Positions 14,450 to 24,308 of a DNA stretch of 64,000 nucleotides are shown piece by piece. The notes beneath the pieces are model-generated. The model worked only from the letters and a program-made list of their open reading frames with translations. It was not told the origin of the DNA and did no database searches. Location of the stretch: positions 62,001-126,000 of the forward strand of contig NZ_JABEQE010000006.1 of the NCBI RefSeq assembly GCF_014174375.1, given 5' to 3'. Origin of the DNA: Gluconacetobacter asukensis (GTDB lineage Bacteria > Pseudomonadota > Alphaproteobacteria > Acetobacterales > Acetobacteraceae). The first letter of the stretch is position 1. Each line of letters opens with the position of its first letter. The position numbers and the translations under genes are program-made.

Positions 14450-14803
14450 TCAGGGCAATGCCGCGATACCGGTCAACTCGACGCGCCAGGCCGGGTCGGC
14501 CAGACGGGCTTCGACGGTCGCGCGGGCCGGTTTGTTGCCGTGGTCCAGCCATTTGTCCCAGGCGCGGTTCATGTCCGCCAGATCGTCCATGTCGGCCAGG
14601 AAGATCTGGACCGACAGCAGGCGGCTCTTGTCCGTGCCGGCTTCGGCCAGAAGGGCATCGACCTGGTGCAGGATATCGGTCATCTGCACTGCGGCATCCT
14701 GCGACGGATCATCGGCGACCTGTCCGGCCAGATAGACCAGCCCGTTATGGATCGTTGCGCCGCACAGGCGGGTTTCGGGTTGCAGGCGGGTAATCGGACT
14801 CAT
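14450..14803 (-). CDS. RidA family (YjgF/YER057c/UK114) protein, cytosolic
   Basis: A 117-residue protein with no signal peptide. RidA proteins hydrolyse reactive enamine/imine intermediates released by PLP enzymes or amine oxidases. Conserved features are ATIHNGLVYLAGQVADD near the N-terminus, the QVDALLAEAGTDKSRLLSVQ helix-strand, and the imine-binding Arg in KPARATVEARLADPAWRVE. The start at 14803 (MSPITRLQPETRLCG) agrees with the family; a longer reading to 14854 adds 17 unlikely residues. It is convergent with ilvE, and RidA proteins commonly protect IlvE from 2-aminoacrylate damage, so proximity may be meaningful. Confidence 0.92.
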   Translation of the reverse strand: MSPITRLQPETRLCGATIHNGLVYLAGQVADDPSQDAAVQMTDILHQVDALLAEAGTDKSRLLSVQIFLADMDDLADMNRAWDKWLDHGNKPARATVEARLADPAWRVELTGIAALP

Positions 14804-14876: not shown

Positions 14877-16193
14877 TCAGCGTGCCGGCCGATCGGTCAG
14901 CATGTGCAGGAAGGCGATGATGTCCTGCCGTTCACGCGGGGTCAGGGCCGGTGCGTCGCCCGGGTGGCGGTCGAAGGGGGCATCCGTGACGTCGAGATTG
15001 GGGCGGTAGGGGGGCGGCAGGTCGTCATATCGCAGGACCTGGCCGTCGGTACCCCTGGGGTAGATCCGGTCGGGGGTGGTGTCGCGCAGCATGTAGAAAT
15101 CCAGAACCTGGTCCAGTGTGCGATAGACGCCATTATGGAAAAAGGCATGTCTGGTGGCGCTGTTGCGCAAGGTCGGTGTGATGAACAGGCCGCACATGTC
15201 GGCGCGGGTTGCCATGTCGGTGCGGACCGGCCCGCAGAGGCCCAGATCGTGGAATGAAGGGTCGCGATTGGCGGACAGGGCGCGGTTGCGCGGAACGCCC
15301 AGCGCCTCGAACTGATGGTCGGTCAGGAGCGGGGGCGTGCCGTCTGGGCCTGGACGGTCCGGGTGGCAGGCCGCGCAATTGCCCTTTGCCGGGTCGTTGA
15401 ACAGCAGGTAGCCCCGGCGCTGGGCGGGCGTCATGCGGCGGTGGCCTTCCAGCCAATCGTCGAACGGGCTGGCATAGGGGTGGAAGGACGGGTCCTCGAT
15501 CTGATAGCGCGCGATGGCGAACAGGGCTTCGGAGAGCAGCAGATTGTCCGAACTGGCGACGGCGGGGCCGCCCAGGCGGCGCAGCATGGGGGCGTAGGGG
15601 CCGTGCGTCAGGCGGGCCAGGACGACGGCGCGGCTGGAGGCCATTTCGTCGGGATTGAAGAGGGGGCCGTCGGCCTGCTGTTGCAGGGTATCGGCGCGGC
15701 CGTCCCAGAACAGGCCGCCCTGAGGGACCAGATTGGTGGCGGAGGCGGTGGTGTTCTGCGCGGTCTTGGCGCCGTGGGGGCCGATGGCGGTGGTCGACGG
15801 TGTGGCGGCGGATTCGGTTTCGGCGTCATCGGGACCGATGCTGAAGCCGGGGCGGGTTTCCAGATAGGTCAGGGTCGGGACCGCGCGCAGTCCGTCGCGT
15901 GTCAGGCTGGTGCCGCCCAGCGCCACGGCGGCAGAGCCCGCGGGTGCGTAATGATGGGCGGGGTCGTGGCAGGAGGCGCAGGATTGCCGCCCCGATCCGG
16001 ACAGGGCGGGATCGTGGAACAGGCTGCGCCCCACTTGCGCCATTGCCGAGAGCGGGGCGACGGGTGGGCGATGCAGCGTGACGGGGCAGGGGTTGCTGCC
16101 GTTGGGCGCCGGCAGGCAGGCGGCCGATGGCGCTCCGGCGGCGAGAGCCGGTGTGGCCAGAAGCGCCAGGAATGCGAATATCTTAAAAATCAT
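14877..16193 (-). CDS. periplasmic di-haem cytochrome c peroxidase / MauG-family protein
   Basis: A 438-residue exported protein starting at 16193 with signal peptide MIFKIFAFLALLATPALA. Two c-type haem motifs, CASCH (near residue 72, in SCASCHDPAHHYAP) and CAACH (in NCAACHPDRPGPDG), mark the di-haem CCP/MauG family. Such proteins reduce hydrogen peroxide with electrons from cytochrome c, or perform MauG-like long-range oxidations. The sequence is longer than classic CCPs (about 330 residues), which suggests the larger subgroup seen next to phosphatases or methylamine systems. Upstream on the same strand lies a secreted phosphoesterase separated by two hairpins, so it probably has its own transcript. 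Confidence 0.88.
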   Translation of the reverse strand: MIFKIFAFLALLATPALAAGAPSAACLPAPNGSNPCPVTLHRPPVAPLSAMAQVGRSLFHDPALSGSGRQSCASCHDPAHHYAPAGSAAVALGGTSLTRDGLRAVPTLTYLETRPGFSIGPDDAETESAATPSTTAIGPHGAKTAQNTTASATNLVPQGGLFWDGRADTLQQQADGPLFNPDEMASSRAVVLARLTHGPYAPMLRRLGGPAVASSDNLLLSEALFAIARYQIEDPSFHPYASPFDDWLEGHRRMTPAQRRGYLLFNDPAKGNCAACHPDRPGPDGTPPLLTDHQFEALGVPRNRALSANRDPSFHDLGLCGPVRTDMATRADMCGLFITPTLRNSATRHAFFHNGVYRTLDQVLDFYMLRDTTPDRIYPRGTDGQVLRYDDLPPPYRPNLDVTDAPFDRHPGDAPALTPRERQDIIAFLHMLTDRPAR

Positions 16194-16247
16194 TGGTGAA
16201 TATCGAGATATTTCCCGAAACCGGCGATGCCCATAACCCCAGGGGTG

Positions 16248-16290
16248 AAGGGGACGACTGTCCCCTTCCGGGTGCAGGGCAGAGCCCTGC
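16248..16290. terminator. double hairpin between phosphoesterase and di-haem peroxidase genes
   Basis: First hairpin: AAGGGGAC / GTCCCCTT with loop GACT (16248-16267). Second: GCAGGGC / GCCCTGC with loop AGA (16274-16290). They lie just after the phosphoesterase stop (16304, minus strand) and before the peroxidase start, so they probably end the phosphoesterase transcript. The short AGA loop is shared with the hairpin at 14412-14442. There is no T tract. Confidence 0.5.
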
Positions 16291-16303
16291 ATACTCCATG
16301 TTC

Positions 16304-19289: not shown

Positions 19290-19378
19290 GCGCGCCTCCC
19301 CCCGACGGGACCATGGTGGGGTGGTGTCGTTATGGGCTATGACTCCTCCATCACGGATGGATGGGTTGGGAACGGGCG

Positions 19379-20803
19379 ATGCGAAACAGCGCGCGGATCT
19401 GGGAATGTGTCGAGGCGCGCAAGGCGCCGCTGATCGCGTTGAGCGACGCCGTATGGTCGGTGCCGGAGCTGAATTTCGGTGAATTCCGCTCGGTCGCGCT
19501 GCATGACGCGGCCCTGGAGCAGGAAGGTTTTCGGGTGACCCGCGATGTGGCGGGGTTGCCGACCGCGATCATGGGCGAGGCCGGGGAAGGCGGGCCGGTG
19601 ATTGCCTTTCTGGGCGAATATGACGCGCTGCCGGGCCTGAGCCAGCAGGCGGGGGTGATGGAACACCAGCCCCTGGCCGGCGACGGCAACGGGCATGCCT
19701 GCGGGCATAATCTGCTGGGTTCGGCGTCGCTTCTGGCGGCGACGGCGCTGAAGGACTGGCTGGCCGAGACCGGGATGCCGGGGCGGGTGCGCTATTATGG
19801 CTGCCCGGCCGAGGAAGGTGGTGCCGGCAAGGGCTTCATGGTGCGGGCCGGCGTGTTCGACGACGTCGACGTTGCGATTTCCTGGCATCCTTATGCTTTC
19901 GCCACAGTCTTTCCGCCAGCGGCGCTGGCCAACATGCGCCTGGATTTCACCTTCATCGGGCGCTCGGCCCATGCCGCCGCCGCGCCCCATCTGGGCCGCT
20001 CGGCGCTGGACGCGGCGGAGTTGATGAATATCGGGGTGAACTACCTGCGCGAGCATATGCTGCCGAGTTCGCGCATCCATTACGCCTATCAGGACGCAGG
20101 GGGGGCCGCGCCCAATGTGGTCCAATCGCGGGTGGTCATCCGCTATACCGTCCGCGCGGCGGAGCTGGATGACATGCTGGCCCTGGCCGAGCGCGTGCGC
20201 CGCGTGGCCGAGGGGGCCGCGATGATGACCGAAACCCGGGTCGAATGCGAAGTGGTCAGCGGCATGGCGAATCTGCTGCCGAATCCGCCACTGGAAGCGG
20301 CGATGCAGGCGAATCTGGAACGGCTGGGTCCGCCGCCCTTTGACGCGGCGGACCGCGCCTTCGGCCGGGAGATGCAGAAGACCTTCACGCAGGAGGACAT
20401 CGTGGCGGCATTCCGCCAGGTGGGGTTGCCGCCCTCGACCGACCGGCCGCTGTGCGATGTCGTGCTGCCTTATCCGTCGCCGGTCGGGCCGATTCTGCTG
20501 GGGTCGACCGATGTGGGGGATGTCAGCTGGACGGTGCCGACCGTCCAGGCGTTCGGTGCGACCTGTGCCATCGGTACGGCGCTGCATTCGTGGCAGATGA
20601 CGGCGCAGGGTAAATCGTCGGTCGCCCACAAGGGCATGGTCCATGTCGCCAAGGTGATGGCGGCGACGGCGGTGGATGTGCTGTCCGATCCCGAGCTGCT
20701 GGCGCAGGCCCGGCGGGACCATGCCGCGCGGCTGGCCGAGCGCCCCTATGTCAGCCCGATGCCGCCGGACCTCATGCCGCCGATTATACGGCAGGATTCC
20801 TGA
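19379..20803 (+). CDS. M20 family amidohydrolase (AbgB-like)
   Basis: A 474-residue metallo-amidohydrolase of the M20D group, whose members cleave N-acyl or p-aminobenzoyl-glutamate amides. Metal-binding motifs are GEYDALPGLSQQAGV, GNGHACGHNLLGSA and CPAEEGGAGKGFMVRAG; the dimerisation-domain signature ADDVDVAISWHPYA-like segment (DDVDVAISWHPYAFATV) follows. VGDVSWTVPTVQAFGATC is the late conserved block of AbgB-like proteins. No signal peptide is visible. ATG 19379 (MRNSARIWECVEARK) matches family N-termini; ATG 19361 would add six residues. It is followed by an AT-rich 298-nt gap. Confidence 0.88.
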   Translation: MRNSARIWECVEARKAPLIALSDAVWSVPELNFGEFRSVALHDAALEQEGFRVTRDVAGLPTAIMGEAGEGGPVIAFLGEYDALPGLSQQAGVMEHQPLAGDGNGHACGHNLLGSASLLAATALKDWLAETGMPGRVRYYGCPAEEGGAGKGFMVRAGVFDDVDVAISWHPYAFATVFPPAALANMRLDFTFIGRSAHAAAAPHLGRSALDAAELMNIGVNYLREHMLPSSRIHYAYQDAGGAAPNVVQSRVVIRYTVRAAELDDMLALAERVRRVAEGAAMMTETRVECEVVSGMANLLPNPPLEAAMQANLERLGPPPFDAADRAFGREMQKTFTQEDIVAAFRQVGLPPSTDRPLCDVVLPYPSPVGPILLGSTDVGDVSWTVPTVQAFGATCAIGTALHSWQMTAQGKSSVAHKGMVHVAKVMAATAVDVLSDPELLAQARRDHAARLAERPYVSPMPPDLMPPIIRQDS

Positions 20804-21101: not shown

Positions 21102-22703
21102 ATGACAAATGCTTTTCGGCGTCCGGTGGCCACCCGCCGCCAGATGCTGACACGAATCGGTATCCTGGGGGGCAGCGCTGCCCTGTACCAGGCCATGACG
21201 AGTCTGGGTCATGCCGCGGGAACGGATTTCAAGGGTGCGCCCGCGCTGACGGGCGGCAAGCCCGGCACGAAGGTCCTGGTGCTGGGCGCCGGCCTGGCGG
21301 GCATGCTGGCGGCGTATGAACTGCGCAAGGCCGGGTATCAGGTCCAGATCCTGGAATTCCAGGACCGTGCCGGCGGCCGCAACATCTCGCTGCGGGGCGG
21401 GGACACGCTGACCGAACTGGGCGGGGCTGTGCAGAAGGTGCAGTTTGCGTCGGGAAACTATATCAATCCCGGCCCGTGGCGGATTCCCTATCATCACCAG
21501 GGGCTGCTGCATTACTGCAAGACTTTCGGCGTCGAGCTGGAACCGTTTGTCGAGCTGAATCACAATTCCTGGTTGCATTCCAGCGACGTATTCGACGGCA
21601 AGCCCGTCCGCTACCGCGATTACGCGGCGGATTTCACGGGCTTTACGGCGGAGCTGCTGGCCAAGGCCATCGACCAGCACAAGCTGGATGAAGTGATCTC
21701 GCCCGACGAGCGCGCGCATGTCGTCTCGGCAATGCGCGGCTGGGGTGGGCTGACGGCCGATGGGGCCTATCGCAAGGGGGCGATCAGCTCGCTGCGCCGT
21801 GGCTTCGCCAAGCCGCAGGGTGGCGGGCTGGATGGTGCGCCCGTGCCGTCCGACCTGTTTGCGCGGGACGACGTCATGCGGTCGGGCCTGTGGCAGTGGA
21901 TGGCGTTCCATGAGCGGCTGGACATGCAGACGACGATGTTCCAGCCGGTGGGCGGCATGGACCAGATCGGCAAGGGCTTCAACCGCCAGGTGCATGACCT
22001 GATCACGTTGAACTGCAAGGTGACGGCGATTCATCAGGACGATCGTCATGTGACGGTCACTTACAACGACATGTCCCATGGCGGCGCGGTGCGGCAGGCC
22101 GAGGCGGATTATTGCGTCTGCACGATTCCGCTGCCGGTGCTGTCGCAGCTGGACGTGCAGGTCAGCGGCCCGATGAAGGCGGCGATCGCGGCGGTGCCCT
22201 ATGCGTCATCGGTCAAGCTGGGGCTGGAATTCAAGCGCCGGTTCTGGGAACAGGACGACCAGATCTATGGCGGCATCAGCTTCACCGACCAGCCGATTAG
22301 CCAGATCTCGTACCCCAGCCATGGCTATTTCTCGGACGGGCCGGCGGTTCTGCTGGGCGGCTACATGTTCGGGCCGGCGGCGTATGATTTCGCCGGCATG
22401 ACCCCGGCCGAGCGGCTGGAGCACGGCCTGGCGCAGGGCCAGGTCATTCATGCCAACTACCGCAAGGAGTTCCGCACCGGCGTGTCGATGGCGTGGAGCC
22501 GCATGCCCTGGACCCTCGGCTGCTGTTCCATGTGGTCGGAACAGGCGCGCAAGACCCATTACAAGGCACTGTGCGACATCGACAACCGGATCGTGCTGGC
22601 CGGCGAGCATGCGTCGCATATCGGCTGCTGGCAGGAAGGCGCCATTCTGTCGTCGCTGGATGCCATCACCCGTCTGCATAAACACGCGCAGGGAGCTGCC
22701 TGA
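21102..22703 (+). CDS. exported flavin amine oxidase / dehydrogenase
   Basis: FAD-dependent amine oxidoreductase of 533 residues (monoamine oxidase/L-amino acid oxidase/NicA2-like superfamily). A Tat-like signal (TRRQML at residues 11-16, then GILGGSAALYQAM) predicts folded export to the periplasm. The FAD Rossmann motif is VLVLGAGLAGMLAAYELRKA (from about residue 58), followed by EFQDRAGGRN and the GGMDQIGKGFNRQV substrate-domain block. The C-terminal FAD block is IVLAGEHASHIGCWQEGAI. It would oxidise an amine or amino acid to an imine. The start ATG 21102 overlaps no gene. The next gene, a cytochrome c, begins at the final base of this stop codon, indicating a functional partnership. Confidence 0.88.
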   Translation: MTNAFRRPVATRRQMLTRIGILGGSAALYQAMTSLGHAAGTDFKGAPALTGGKPGTKVLVLGAGLAGMLAAYELRKAGYQVQILEFQDRAGGRNISLRGGDTLTELGGAVQKVQFASGNYINPGPWRIPYHHQGLLHYCKTFGVELEPFVELNHNSWLHSSDVFDGKPVRYRDYAADFTGFTAELLAKAIDQHKLDEVISPDERAHVVSAMRGWGGLTADGAYRKGAISSLRRGFAKPQGGGLDGAPVPSDLFARDDVMRSGLWQWMAFHERLDMQTTMFQPVGGMDQIGKGFNRQVHDLITLNCKVTAIHQDDRHVTVTYNDMSHGGAVRQAEADYCVCTIPLPVLSQLDVQVSGPMKAAIAAVPYASSVKLGLEFKRRFWEQDDQIYGGISFTDQPISQISYPSHGYFSDGPAVLLGGYMFGPAAYDFAGMTPAERLEHGLAQGQVIHANYRKEFRTGVSMAWSRMPWTLGCCSMWSEQARKTHYKALCDIDNRIVLAGEHASHIGCWQEGAILSSLDAITRLHKHAQGAA

Positions 22704-23122
22704 TGCGGTCCGTATTTCTGCTTCTGGCCGGCCTGGCGGCCGGCGCGTTTCTTGCCCCGCAGGCGCGGGCCGACAGTGCCAGTGCCGTCGTGGGCAAGAT
22801 GCAGCCGTTGAAGGACGGCGCCGACGTCTACAAGCATGTCTGCCAGAGCTGCCACATGCCCGATGCCAAGGGCGCCGAAGGGGCTGGCGCCCGTTTCCCG
22901 GCGCTGGCCGGAAATGCCAAGCTGGCCAGCGCGGACTACCCTGTCTATGTCGTGCTGAACGGTTTCGGCGGCATGCCGTGGTTTTCCGGCATGCTGACCG
23001 ATCAGCAGGTCGCGGACGTGGTGAATTATATTCGCACCCATTTCGGCAATCATTACACCGACATGGTGAAGCCGTCGGATGTCGCGGCCCAGCATCCGAC
23101 CATCAGCTCCGAAGAGGATTGA
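22703..23122 (+). CDS. small periplasmic c-type cytochrome, partner of amine oxidase
   Basis: A 139-residue secreted cytochrome c. Signal peptide MRSVFLLLAGLAAGAFLAPQARA precedes the mature chain. The haem motif is CQSCH at residues 47-51. The distal Met is probably in GGMPWFSGM. LTDQQVADVVNYIRTHFGNHY is the C-terminal helix typical of mono-haem class I cytochromes. The gene overlaps the amine oxidase stop by one base. It likely takes electrons from the reduced flavin and passes them to the respiratory chain, which is an inference from operon structure and from the described NicA2/CycN pair. Confidence 0.9.
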   Translation: MRSVFLLLAGLAAGAFLAPQARADSASAVVGKMQPLKDGADVYKHVCQSCHMPDAKGAEGAGARFPALAGNAKLASADYPVYVVLNGFGGMPWFSGMLTDQQVADVVNYIRTHFGNHYTDMVKPSDVAAQHPTISSEED

Positions 23123-23129
23123 CAGGGAC

Positions 23130-23639
23130 ATGACGATTTTCAAGACATTCCGCATCGCCGCGCTGGCTTCTGTCCTGGCCGGCGGAGCGGTCTCCGCCGC
23201 CGGGGCGGCCGATGTGGTCCGGCATAGCGATCCGGCCGGTCATTTCCCGATCTCCACCGCGATCGAGGTGCCGCCCGGTGCCACGACCATCTATCTGAGC
23301 GGCATGGGTGCGCCGCCGGTCGACAAGACGGCCGATCCGAAGACGCTGGCCGCCTATGGCGACACGGAGACCCAGGTGCGCGGCGCGCTGACCCGCATCC
23401 AGGGCGAACTGGCCAAGCTGAAGCTGACCATGGGCGATGTCGTCAACATGCACATCTACATGGTCGCCGACCCCAAGCTGGGCAAGATCGACTTTCCGGG
23501 GATGATGAAGGCCTACACCGAGTTCTACGGTACGCCGGCCCAGCCGAAGCTGCCGACCCGCTCGGCATTTGAAGTTGCCCATCTGGCCAATCCCGGCTGG
23601 CTGGTGGAAATCGAGGTTGTCGCGGTTCGCACCCACTGA
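23130..23639 (+). CDS. exported RidA family protein in amine oxidase operon
   Basis: RidA-type imine/enamine hydrolase of 169 residues. Unlike the cytosolic RidA at 14450-14803, it carries a signal peptide (RIAALASVLAGGAVSAAGA). The mature part has TIYLSGMGAPPVDKTAD, the LTRIQGELAKLKLTMGDVV helix-strand and the conserved Arg in LPTRSAFEVAHLANPG. ATG 23130 follows ACAGGG and lies 7 nt after the cytochrome stop. It is expected to act in the periplasm on the imine product of the neighbouring flavoenzyme, releasing ammonia and a carbonyl compound. A hairpin follows directly, ending the operon. Confidence 0.88.
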   Translation: MTIFKTFRIAALASVLAGGAVSAAGAADVVRHSDPAGHFPISTAIEVPPGATTIYLSGMGAPPVDKTADPKTLAAYGDTETQVRGALTRIQGELAKLKLTMGDVVNMHIYMVADPKLGKIDFPGMMKAYTEFYGTPAQPKLPTRSAFEVAHLANPGWLVEIEVVAVRTH

Positions 23640-23645
23640 CGCCGG

Positions 23646-23669
23646 CCCCCGGGGGCTTGCCCCCCGGGG
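23646..23669 (+). terminator. GC-rich hairpin after exported ridA gene
   Basis: Runs of C and G around a TT loop (CCCCCGGGGGC-TT-GCCCCCCGGGG) form a strong stem 7 nt after the RidA stop. There is no T tract. It likely terminates the amine oxidase-cytochrome-RidA transcript. It resembles the hairpin families at 14386-14442 and 16248-16290 in composition. Confidence 0.55.
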
Positions 23670-23810
23670 ATACCCGATGATCGGCCCGTGATGGGAACCC
23701 GATGATATGTCCGGGCATTAAGAGCCTGATTGGAAACGTATGTCGGATCGCCGCCAGTGCGCAGTTCCAGTCGGCTTCAGGCGGGGATATGTGGCGGGGA
23801 GGGCCGACGG

Positions 23811-24308
23811 GTGACGGATCTGGTAAGGCGCGCGGCAATCTTTGCGACATCGATCCATGCCGCGACCGGTCAGCGCCTGCCTTATACCGACGAGCCGTTT
23901 ATTGCCCACCCGATGCGCGTCGCCGAACTGGTTGCCGGGACCGGGGCCCGGCCAGAAGTTGTGGCGGCGGCATGGTTGCATGATGTGCTAGAGGATACGC
24001 CGGTGACGCTGGAGGAAATCGCCTCGGTCTTCGGGCCGGAGGTGGCGTCTCTGGTGGATATGGCGGCGATGTTGCCTCATTGCCTGGCCGACGACCTGCC
24101 GGGAGCGGTCGATCACGCGCAACTGGCCCGGGCTTCGGCCGAGGCGCAGACCATCTGCATTGCCAGCCTGATCGACCATACGACACAGATCCTGCGCTAC
24201 GAAACCAGGCGGCGCAGCCTTCTGCTGCATGAAAAGCGTGAGATTCTGCGCGGCCTCGGCAAGGGCGATGCCGGGTTATACATGATGGCGGCACTGGTCG
24301 TCAGTTGA
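23811..24308 (+). CDS. small HD-domain protein, SpoT/MESH1-like
   Basis: A 165-residue stand-alone HD domain related to the (p)ppGpp hydrolase domain of SpoT and to MESH1. AIHPMRVAELVAG-like sequence (PFIAHPMRVAELVAGTG), WLHDVLEDTPVTLEEI and FGPEVASLVDMAA reproduce the H...HD...ED signature. The later Asp block, ADKxxN in SpoT, is IDHTTQ here, keeping only the Asp. No synthetase, TGS or ACT domain is present. GTG 23811 follows GGGGAGGG with about 8 nt spacing and is preferred to the ATG at 23730, which adds 27 unlikely residues. It may hydrolyse (p)ppGpp or another nucleotide; this is inferred. Confidence 0.8.
   Translation: MTDLVRRAAIFATSIHAATGQRLPYTDEPFIAHPMRVAELVAGTGARPEVVAAAWLHDVLEDTPVTLEEIASVFGPEVASLVDMAAMLPHCLADDLPGAVDHAQLARASAEAQTICIASLIDHTTQILRYETRRRSLLLHEKREILRGLGKGDAGLYMMAALVVS

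Follow-up and report, generated by a model that had tools for sequence, protein, structure and literature searches.

A short operon that appears to export three proteins, a flavin-dependent oxidase, a cytochrome c and a Rid protein, raises the question of what the enzyme oxidises, where its electrons go and what the Rid protein contributes. The operon lies in a 64,000-nucleotide stretch of the Gluconacetobacter asukensis genome, referred to here as the window, and consists of three genes on the plus strand in the order enzyme-cytochrome-Rid. The first, lao (21102..22703), encodes a 533-aa L-amino acid oxidase-type flavoenzyme predicted to be exported by the Tat system, the second, cccA (22703..23122), encodes a Sec-exported one-haem cytochrome c of 139 aa that is the probable electron acceptor, and the third, ridA (23130..23639), encodes a signal-peptide Rid protein of 169 aa. 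The TGA stop of lao (22701-22703) and the ATG of cccA (22703) overlap by 1 nt, while 7 nt (23123-23129) separate cccA from ridA. Inspected by eye, Lao carries a Tat signal with the twin-arginine motif ATRRQMLTRIG at residues 10-20 (21129..21161, plus strand), in which R12 and R13 are invariant in 16 aligned rows, window included; CccA carries the export signal MRSVFLLLAGLAAGAFLAPQARA followed by a single CxxCH haem-binding motif (CQSCH; 22841..22855, plus strand), and RidA the signal peptide MTIFKTFRIAALASVLAGGAVSAAGA. The protein start MTNAF.RP also occurs in the four same-genus relatives inspected. Thus, the open reading frames and signals bear out the original prediction of a three-gene operon with a 1-nt overlap and a 7-nt gap, encoding a flavoenzyme with a Tat-like signal, a cytochrome with one CxxCH and a Rid protein with a signal peptide. 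The arrangement is more than chance, as the trio is kept in all 13 other same-genus genomes searched. An upstream gene for an M20 amidohydrolase is not supported as a member of the operon, since it lacks a signal peptide (by eye) and its spacing varies: among 14 same-genus genomes (window counted) it lies ~300 nt from the trio in seven and ~3 kb away in three, and in the remaining four, which include the short contig L070, the stretch taken showed no such gene. An Rfam search of the window at gathering thresholds returned nothing but a tRNA, and the trio had no relative in the viral contigs searched.

The flavoenzyme had been proposed to dehydrogenate an unspecified amine in the manner of NicA2. 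Lao matches PF01593 (3.5e-51), and its best sequence match in the PDB is the L-amino acid oxidase (LAAO) of Rhodococcus opacus (2JAE; 1.9e-86). The same structure ranks first in a Foldseek search with the predicted model of Lao (pLDDT 81.8), with by-target and by-query TM-scores of 0.84 and 0.76 at ~35% identity, and the top 12 fold matches are all L-amino acid oxidases. In addition, R127 of Lao, invariant in 16 aligned rows, aligns with the arginine of the GATRIP stretch of the R. opacus enzyme, which we take to be the carboxylate-binding residue. As the top sequence, profile and fold matches are L-amino acid oxidases, membership of the NicA2/Pnao subfamily is rejected on these matches, and judged by its sequence Lao is L-amino acid oxidase-like, not NicA2-like. 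Its substrate is therefore likely an L-amino acid, as is tryptophan in the published orthologue, and not a generic amine. NicA2 and Pnao share with the window the combination of a Tat flavoenzyme and an adjacent Sec cytochrome c (PMC12224317, PMC9396064), and NicA2 is kept here for how it works, not as kin: the proposed parallel stands for cytochrome c use by analogy and fails for kinship. The genome carries three lao-cytochrome pairs in all, and the two outside the window, which lie on contig C4 and have no Rid gene alongside, could have tryptophan activity as well.

The published orthologue is the lao-cccA-ridA cluster (GDI2456-GDI2454) of Gluconacetobacter diazotrophicus PAL5, described by Rodrigues et al. 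in 2016 (PMC5053998). Protein identity between the two trios supports this orthology, at 88, 82 and 85% (Rid over residues 26-169; 81% for the whole Rid). Five of the six published RT-qPCR primers for GDI2456, GDI2455 and GDI2454 match the PA1 5 locus (L146) exactly, the exception being ccc_F; against the window sequence, three primers match best, with 2-4 mismatches, precisely at the gene offset published for them, the two rid primers, with 3 and 1 mismatches, are displaced from it by 9 nt, and ccc_F has no match there. The PAL5 cluster and that of the window share the three genes, their order, the Tat signal, the 533-aa enzyme and the genus group, but they belong to different species, and the function is known in one and predicted from sequence in the other. 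Furthermore, a 13-kb stretch around the PA1 5 cluster yielded neither of the ADH and M20 genes that lie upstream of the trio in the window. In G. diazotrophicus, Tn5 insertion in lao left tryptophan in the medium and no IAA, with indoles at 2.0-3.9% of wild type by HPLC, and the mutant gave smaller rice roots (PMC5053998). The insertion lowers all three transcripts, and the polarity of the 2016 insertions means that they did not probe cccA and ridA singly; the same study already proposed what the cytochrome and RidA do (PMC5053998). Coupling of an exported Rid to such chemistry had been thought unusual, yet the cluster with both ideas was published in 2016, and a periplasmic LAO1/RidA pair has been described in Chlamydomonas (PMC10805672); the trio is thus a good but largely known system, not a new one. 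In the excerpts of PMC10805672, Chlamydomonas LAO1 and LAO2 (RidA) likewise pair a Rid protein with a periplasmic L-amino acid oxidase and convert tryptophan to indole-3-pyruvate and IAA, but the organism is a eukaryote, LAO1 is described as H2O2-forming, and these excerpts name no cytochrome in the cluster.

Taken with the published work, lao-cccA-ridA probably encodes a periplasmic L-amino acid dehydrogenase unit, in which electrons pass to the cytochrome and Rid clears the imine. Lao, an FAD enzyme exported folded via Tat, would oxidise L-amino acids, among them tryptophan, by hydride abstraction to the corresponding 2-imino acid. The reduced flavin would then hand its electrons to Sec-exported CccA, which would feed them into the respiratory chain, with O2 not the main acceptor, while the exported Rid3-type protein would accelerate the hydrolytic release of keto acid and ammonia from the imino acid. 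Were tryptophan the substrate, this would yield indole-3-pyruvate, the auxin precursor. What this chemistry serves is a separate matter, and there is slightly less than an even chance that it chiefly serves to scavenge nitrogen and energy from many different L-amino acids, with indole-3-pyruvate and auxin as by-products of supplied tryptophan. Such a role can be compatible with the dehydrogenase explanation, as it does not concern the chemistry. It accords with the spread of the Lao lineage across many genera of Pseudomonadota, with the three lao-cytochrome pairs of the genome and, in the excerpts of PMC10805672, with Chlamydomonas LAO1 serving growth on most amino acids; wild-type G. diazotrophicus without added tryptophan also yields less than 1.5 ug/mL indoles, although indole-3-pyruvate accumulates in its supernatant and the smaller rice roots of the lao mutant likewise speak against a by-product (PMC5053998). 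A substrate panel for Lao was not found in the literature.

CccA itself matches PF13442 (9.5e-14) and PF00034. In a survey of loci from public genomes covering the best 80 of 568 relatives, where L104 and L124, which each have two copies of the enzyme gene, were counted once by the first-listed copy, a cytochrome gene lies within 300 nt of the enzyme gene, on either side, in 78/80 loci, the two others being L136, at a contig end, and L166; a loose RR pattern is present in the N-terminal stretch of the enzyme in 79 of the 80. Among more distant LAAO loci (~36-42% identity), two of 12 (L067, L077) have an adjacent cytochrome and ten have none, with the provision that cytochrome and Rid genes were sought by profiles grown from the lineage of Lao and more distant ones can be missed. 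A Tat signal together with an adjacent cytochrome c was reported in 2025 as a good predictor of cytochrome-c-using dehydrogenases (PMC12224317), which lends indirect support to the prediction of periplasmic dehydrogenation with electrons passing to the cytochrome. In clades 2 and 3 of that study, where the neighbour is a one-haem class I cytochrome, one-haem as CccA is, the cytochrome oxidised the enzyme faster than O2 did. The predictor is not absolute, because clade 1 pairs, with two-haem cytochromes, reacted only modestly with cytochrome, and the reactivities of the B. anthina enzyme with O2 and with its own cytochrome lay within about one order of magnitude (PMC12224317). Moreover, the enzymes studied were a NicA2-seeded set, unlike the window enzyme with its LAAO matches in the PDB, and the text of PMC12224317 contains none of the terms 'L-amino acid', 'amino acid oxidase' and 'RidA'. 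A literature search found no electron-acceptor measurement or kinetics for the Lao lineage, and by analogy with clades 2 and 3 CccA would be the electron acceptor of Lao. Enzyme distances correlate with cytochrome distances over 103 pairs and with Rid distances over 53 pairs, r being 0.81 in both cases, values that were not used as evidence because common ancestry alone can give such r; L062 and L055, copies of L087 and L146, were left out of this run.

The R. opacus LAAO, the nearest solved relative, is known as an oxidase, and Lao could itself be a true periplasmic oxidase that reduces O2 to H2O2, with the cytochrome serving respiration at large or the handling of peroxide, and Rid clearing the imine. 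This is unlikely given that a cytochrome gene accompanies lao on one side or the other in 78/80 loci (best 80 of 568 relatives). The lysine near flavin N5, on the flavin side, is kept in Lao (K372 by alignment) and would suit an oxidase, but its retention does not separate oxidase from dehydrogenase. Comparison with tested enzymes cuts both ways, as most Tat enzymes without a cytochrome neighbour reacted fast with O2 and clade 1 is modest with cytochrome, while the one-haem clades 2 and 3, like CccA in this respect, prefer the cytochrome (PMC12224317). Finally, cytochrome c maturation (ccm) mutants made IAA at 5% of wild type (Lee 2004, as told in PMC5053998), which also argues against an oxidase, although the phenotype is not specific, since the loss in such mutants would extend to c-type cytochromes in general.

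The Rid protein matches PF01042 (1.8e-14), and its nearest solved structures are PFL_1385 (9BKC; 4.6e-30) and PSPTO_3006 (9BKA; 7e-27), the two proteins studied in PMC5619798. In an alignment of 57 rows, comprising the window and 56 Rids encoded no more than 1.1 kb from lao, with near-copies included, R144 and E160 are each kept in 56/57 rows and Ile41 in 57/57; R144 aligns with the TdcF arginine, and I41 stands at the tyrosine place by MAFFT alignment. The Rid3 subfamily keeps the catalytic Arg and Glu and replaces Tyr by Ile (PMC4433059), and on these residues RidA belongs with Rid3. In the excerpts of PMC5619798, the Rid3 proteins PFL_1385 and PSPTO_3006 lower semicarbazone formation from LAAO-made imines, that is, they hydrolyse them, in line with the imine hydrolysis originally predicted; by analogy RidA would act in this way on the imine made by Lao in G. 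asukensis.

Across the survey (best 80 of 568 relatives), 71 loci were testable, lao being flanked by 1.5 kb or more in each direction, and a Rid gene lies within 1 kb in 31 of these, on either side of the enzyme gene, and is absent in 40. All 31 adjacent Rids look exported: 30 pass a crude hydropathy rule, whose threshold of 1.7 was chosen after inspection of the data, and L127 (1.59) is signal-like by eye. Rid is thus not universal in the lineage, and because 40/71 loci have none within 1 kb, it appears dispensable for the lineage's chemistry. The expectation that the three genes stay together in most relatives holds for enzyme and cytochrome and not for Rid; a near-constant cytochrome beside the enzyme and an optional exported Rid are what the present comparison adds. 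On the LAAO tree, a quick build with long branches flagged from which L062, L055 and most same-genus near-copies were left out, Rid adjacency switches no fewer than 19 times, and this, with the either-side position, is as expected if Rid repeatedly joined or was lost. That exported Rid acts elsewhere in the periplasm and owes its place in the operon to regulation alone is improbable: the 40 loci without Rid and the genome's two other pairs lacking one agree with it, but the catalytic Arg and Glu are kept, adjacency has changed repeatedly and on either side, and of 249 Acetobacteraceae genomes searched, 32 have a close homologue of this Rid, which in 28 of them lies 427-846 nt downstream of a lao on the same strand.

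On the minus strand, a separate RidA gene occupies roughly 14450-14803, as had been noted. Five of the genome's six other Rids were scored for a signal and one passed (C2:403758-404096), ruling out that Rid export is unique to the lao locus. This second signal-peptide Rid lies ~1.5 kb from a TPP enzyme gene, which was dropped as an indolepyruvate decarboxylase since the PDB entries it matches best are pyruvate decarboxylases and it reaches 352 bits, far short of the NCBIfam indolepyruvate decarboxylase cut-off of 946.

Beyond this locus, it is about an even bet that the Pseudomonadota-wide, Tat-exported 'L-amino acid oxidase' lineage represents separate, unrecognised cytochrome-c-linked L-amino acid dehydrogenases, with exported Rid as a recurring optional add-on. 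If so, the bacterial auxin precursor made by the Lao route would be a product of respiration, not of H2O2-forming oxidation, which would explain the auxin loss in cytochrome c maturation mutants, and the ten-year-old auxin operon and the ccm phenotype would share one explanation. Auxin output of Gluconacetobacter should in that case depend on cytochrome supply and respiration, and exported Rid would make the step from imine to keto acid fast in the periplasm. The operon joins three matters studied separately, namely auxin of plant-associated bacteria, 'amine oxidases' as cytochrome c dehydrogenases and imine clearing by Rid, and the survey yields test material in the form of enzyme-cytochrome pairs with and without Rid, even within one genome.

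A GC-rich stem (23647..23669, plus strand) comes after the Rid stop, 3' of the operon, and had been predicted to end it. The stem is present, but its folding energy is unexceptional (z -0.95) and, having no T run, it was not listed by a terminator scan. Minimum-energy folds of ~70 nt past the Rid stop, judged by eye with no shuffle control, gave a strong stem-loop of differing sequence in 12/13 relatives, L053 being the exception; L062 and L055 were again left out as copies. The stem-loop is followed by a T run in L088 and by a T-rich tail in L092, and the hairpin after ridA is a likely terminator.

The unit consists of three plus-strand genes: lao for a flavin amine oxidase (21102-22703; Pfam PF01593), cccA for a cytochrome c (22703-23122; PF13442/PF00034) and ridA for a Ribonuc_L-PSP/Rid protein (23130-23639; PF01042). 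ORF reading bore out the original prediction of this arrangement, with a 1-nt overlap between lao and cccA and a 7-nt gap between cccA and ridA. The predicted export signals, judged by eye, were also seen again: the flavoenzyme begins with the Tat-type signal MTNAFRRPVATRRQMLTRIG, and Sec-type signals stand at the start of the Rid and of the cytochrome, which has one CxxCH. The hairpin said to end the unit is present 3' of the trio and GC-rich, but it is without a T run and of ordinary energy. In 12 of the 13 relatives folded, the 70 nt downstream of the Rid stop codon contain a strong stem-loop of differing sequence (by eye, no shuffle control), with a T run in locus L088 and a T-rich tail in L092.

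The system is already known. Rodrigues et al. 2016 describe lao-cccA-ridA (GDI2456-2454) of Gluconacetobacter diazotrophicus PAL5 (PMC5053998). Of the six primers that the paper gives, five exactly match the G. diazotrophicus PA1 5 cluster (L146), whose Lao, CccA and RidA share 88, 82 and 85% identity with those of the window (whole Rid, 81%); the window trio is therefore the known operon, found in a sister species that is placed in the same genus as G. diazotrophicus. The lao stretch of L146 equals that of L055 (genome G003, also of this genus) letter for letter. Two Tn5 insertions in lao of the orthologue left tryptophan in the medium and abolished IAA, showing that both tryptophan use and IAA depend on lao there; indoles fell to 2.0-3.9% by HPLC, and in Gdiaa01, the mutant measured, transcripts of all three genes were lowered (PMC5053998). 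The same paper cites ccm mutants whose IAA is 5% of that of the wild type, and its authors suggested that the cytochrome may carry Lao's electrons and that RidA may hydrolyse the imine from Lao. The original prediction of periplasmic oxidation, cytochrome reduction and imine hydrolysis had thus largely been proposed before.

By sequence, profile and predicted fold, the flavoenzyme is L-amino acid oxidase (LAAO)-like. Its best sequence match is 2JAE (1.9e-86), the profile match gives the same placement, and the predicted structure (pLDDT 81.8) retrieves 2JAE at Foldseek rank 1, ranks 1-43 being oxidases of L-amino acids, L-glutamate or L-lysine. The Arg of the roLAAO stretch GATRIP, which binds the carboxylate, has its aligned counterpart in R127, a residue that does not vary across 16 rows. 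Together, the LAAO-like matches and R127 favour alpha-amino acids over plain amines as substrates, and so point away from the amine first proposed.

As for the electron acceptor, Akram et al. 2025 conclude that, in this superfamily, a Tat signal plus an adjacent cytochrome c gene predicts well which enzymes are dehydrogenases that use cytochrome c, and that the Lys near the flavin does not separate oxidases from dehydrogenases (PMC12224317). Both genetic features are found in the window unit. Cytochrome use has been shown for such relatives in other clades: clade 2 and 3 enzymes react faster with cytochrome than with O2, though by a small margin in the B. anthina enzyme, and clade 1 pairs with two-haem cytochromes react only modestly (PMC12224317). 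The clade 2 and 3 cytochromes are one-haem class I, like CccA of the window. The enzyme set was NicA2-seeded, and the window Lao is LAAO-like; the terms 'L-amino acid' and 'RidA' are absent from the available text. The open-licence papers searched yielded no measured electron acceptor for the Lao lineage.

The distribution of the trio was followed in a collection of one genome per species (84,980 species), counting one enzyme copy per locus in 80 loci, the best of at least 568 relatives. Among these 80, lao carries a loose RR pattern in 79 and has a same-strand cytochrome gene within 300 nt in 78 (73 downstream, 5 upstream), the exceptions being L166 and L136, whose contig stops 85 nt after lao. 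Where lao has 1.5 kb on either side (71 loci), a Rid gene lies within 1 kb in 31 (26 downstream, beyond the cytochrome gene; 4 upstream on lao's strand; 1 on the opposite strand), so the predicted trio holds widely for enzyme and cytochrome but not for Rid. Where Rid does adjoin lao, the anticipated signal peptide-like start is found in 31 of 31 (30 by score, 1 by eye). Twelve more distant LAAO loci include such a cytochrome gene in two (L067, L077); the other ten lack it, and have a Rid in the locus in two cases, adjacent in one. Rid adjacency switches at least 19 times across a tree of 108 enzymes, with 15 changes forced by the starred branches alone. Within 249 Acetobacteraceae genomes, lao occurs in 44 (E <= 1e-100) and a close Rid in 32 (E <= 1e-25), and in 28 of the 32 it follows a same-strand lao at a distance of 427-846 nt; the remainder are G026, which has no lao, G519, and G443 and G554, with the genes on different contigs. 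Enzyme and cytochrome thus form the core unit, with Rid as an exported optional partner gained or lost repeatedly. In L122, L124, L126, L129 and L141 (Novosphingobium and another Sphingomonadales genome), the cytochrome gene adjoins the LAAO gene upstream, not downstream. Rids with a lipoprotein-like signal (lipobox) lie ~3 kb from the LAAO-cytochrome pair in L073, L075 and L159, and the adjacent Rid of L165 has a similar signal by eye.

The solved structures nearest to the window Rid are PFL1385 and PSPTO3006, both Rid3, which have been shown to act on imines from snake LAAO (PMC5619798). The Rid3 marks, a kept Arg and Glu with Tyr replaced by Ile (PMC4433059), hold at R144 (56/57 rows), E160 (56/57) and I41 (57/57), near-copies included. 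FAD amine oxidase genes cluster with RidA, sometimes Rid3, genes (PMC4433059). It is quite probable that, in the periplasm, Lao would convert an L-amino acid to an imino acid with reduction of FAD to FADH2, which would pass its electrons to CccA in two one-electron steps and on to the respiratory chain, while RidA would hydrolyse the imino acid to keto acid and ammonia; from tryptophan, the keto acid would be indole-3-pyruvate. The original interpretation thus stands in part, the lao role being established in the orthologue and the acceptor and Rid step inferred.

The 4.39-Mb genome that holds the window (G000) has two further Tat-LAAO and cytochrome c pairs on contig C4 (L051:6363-8377 and L052:5931-7900; enzyme identity 73% in one pair and 57% in the other), neither with a Rid beside it, and a second signal-peptide Rid at C2:403758-404096 (L003, L167; signal MRYVAPTLLAMLFATASQA). 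That one cell has a Rid outside any pair and two pairs lacking a Rid weakens the idea that each enzyme strictly has its own Rid, though the three enzymes could share a periplasmic one. A pyruvate decarboxylase gene lies ~1.5 kb from the second Rid. Upstream of one C4 pair is a TonB receptor gene; the other is preceded by a flavin reductase-like gene and has a POT-family transporter close by.

Around the window trio, an M20 amidohydrolase gene (19361-20803, plus strand; TIGR01891, over cut-off) precedes lao by ~300 nt. Counting the window's own, 7 of 14 genomes of the genus show this placing; in the others the gene sits elsewhere or was not found. A di-haem MauG/cytochrome c peroxidase-like gene (14877-16292, minus strand; PF03150) adjoins the window's other Rid gene. 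Directly downstream of the trio lies a gene for a short, stand-alone RelA/SpoT-type HD domain protein of 192 aa (23730-24308, plus strand).
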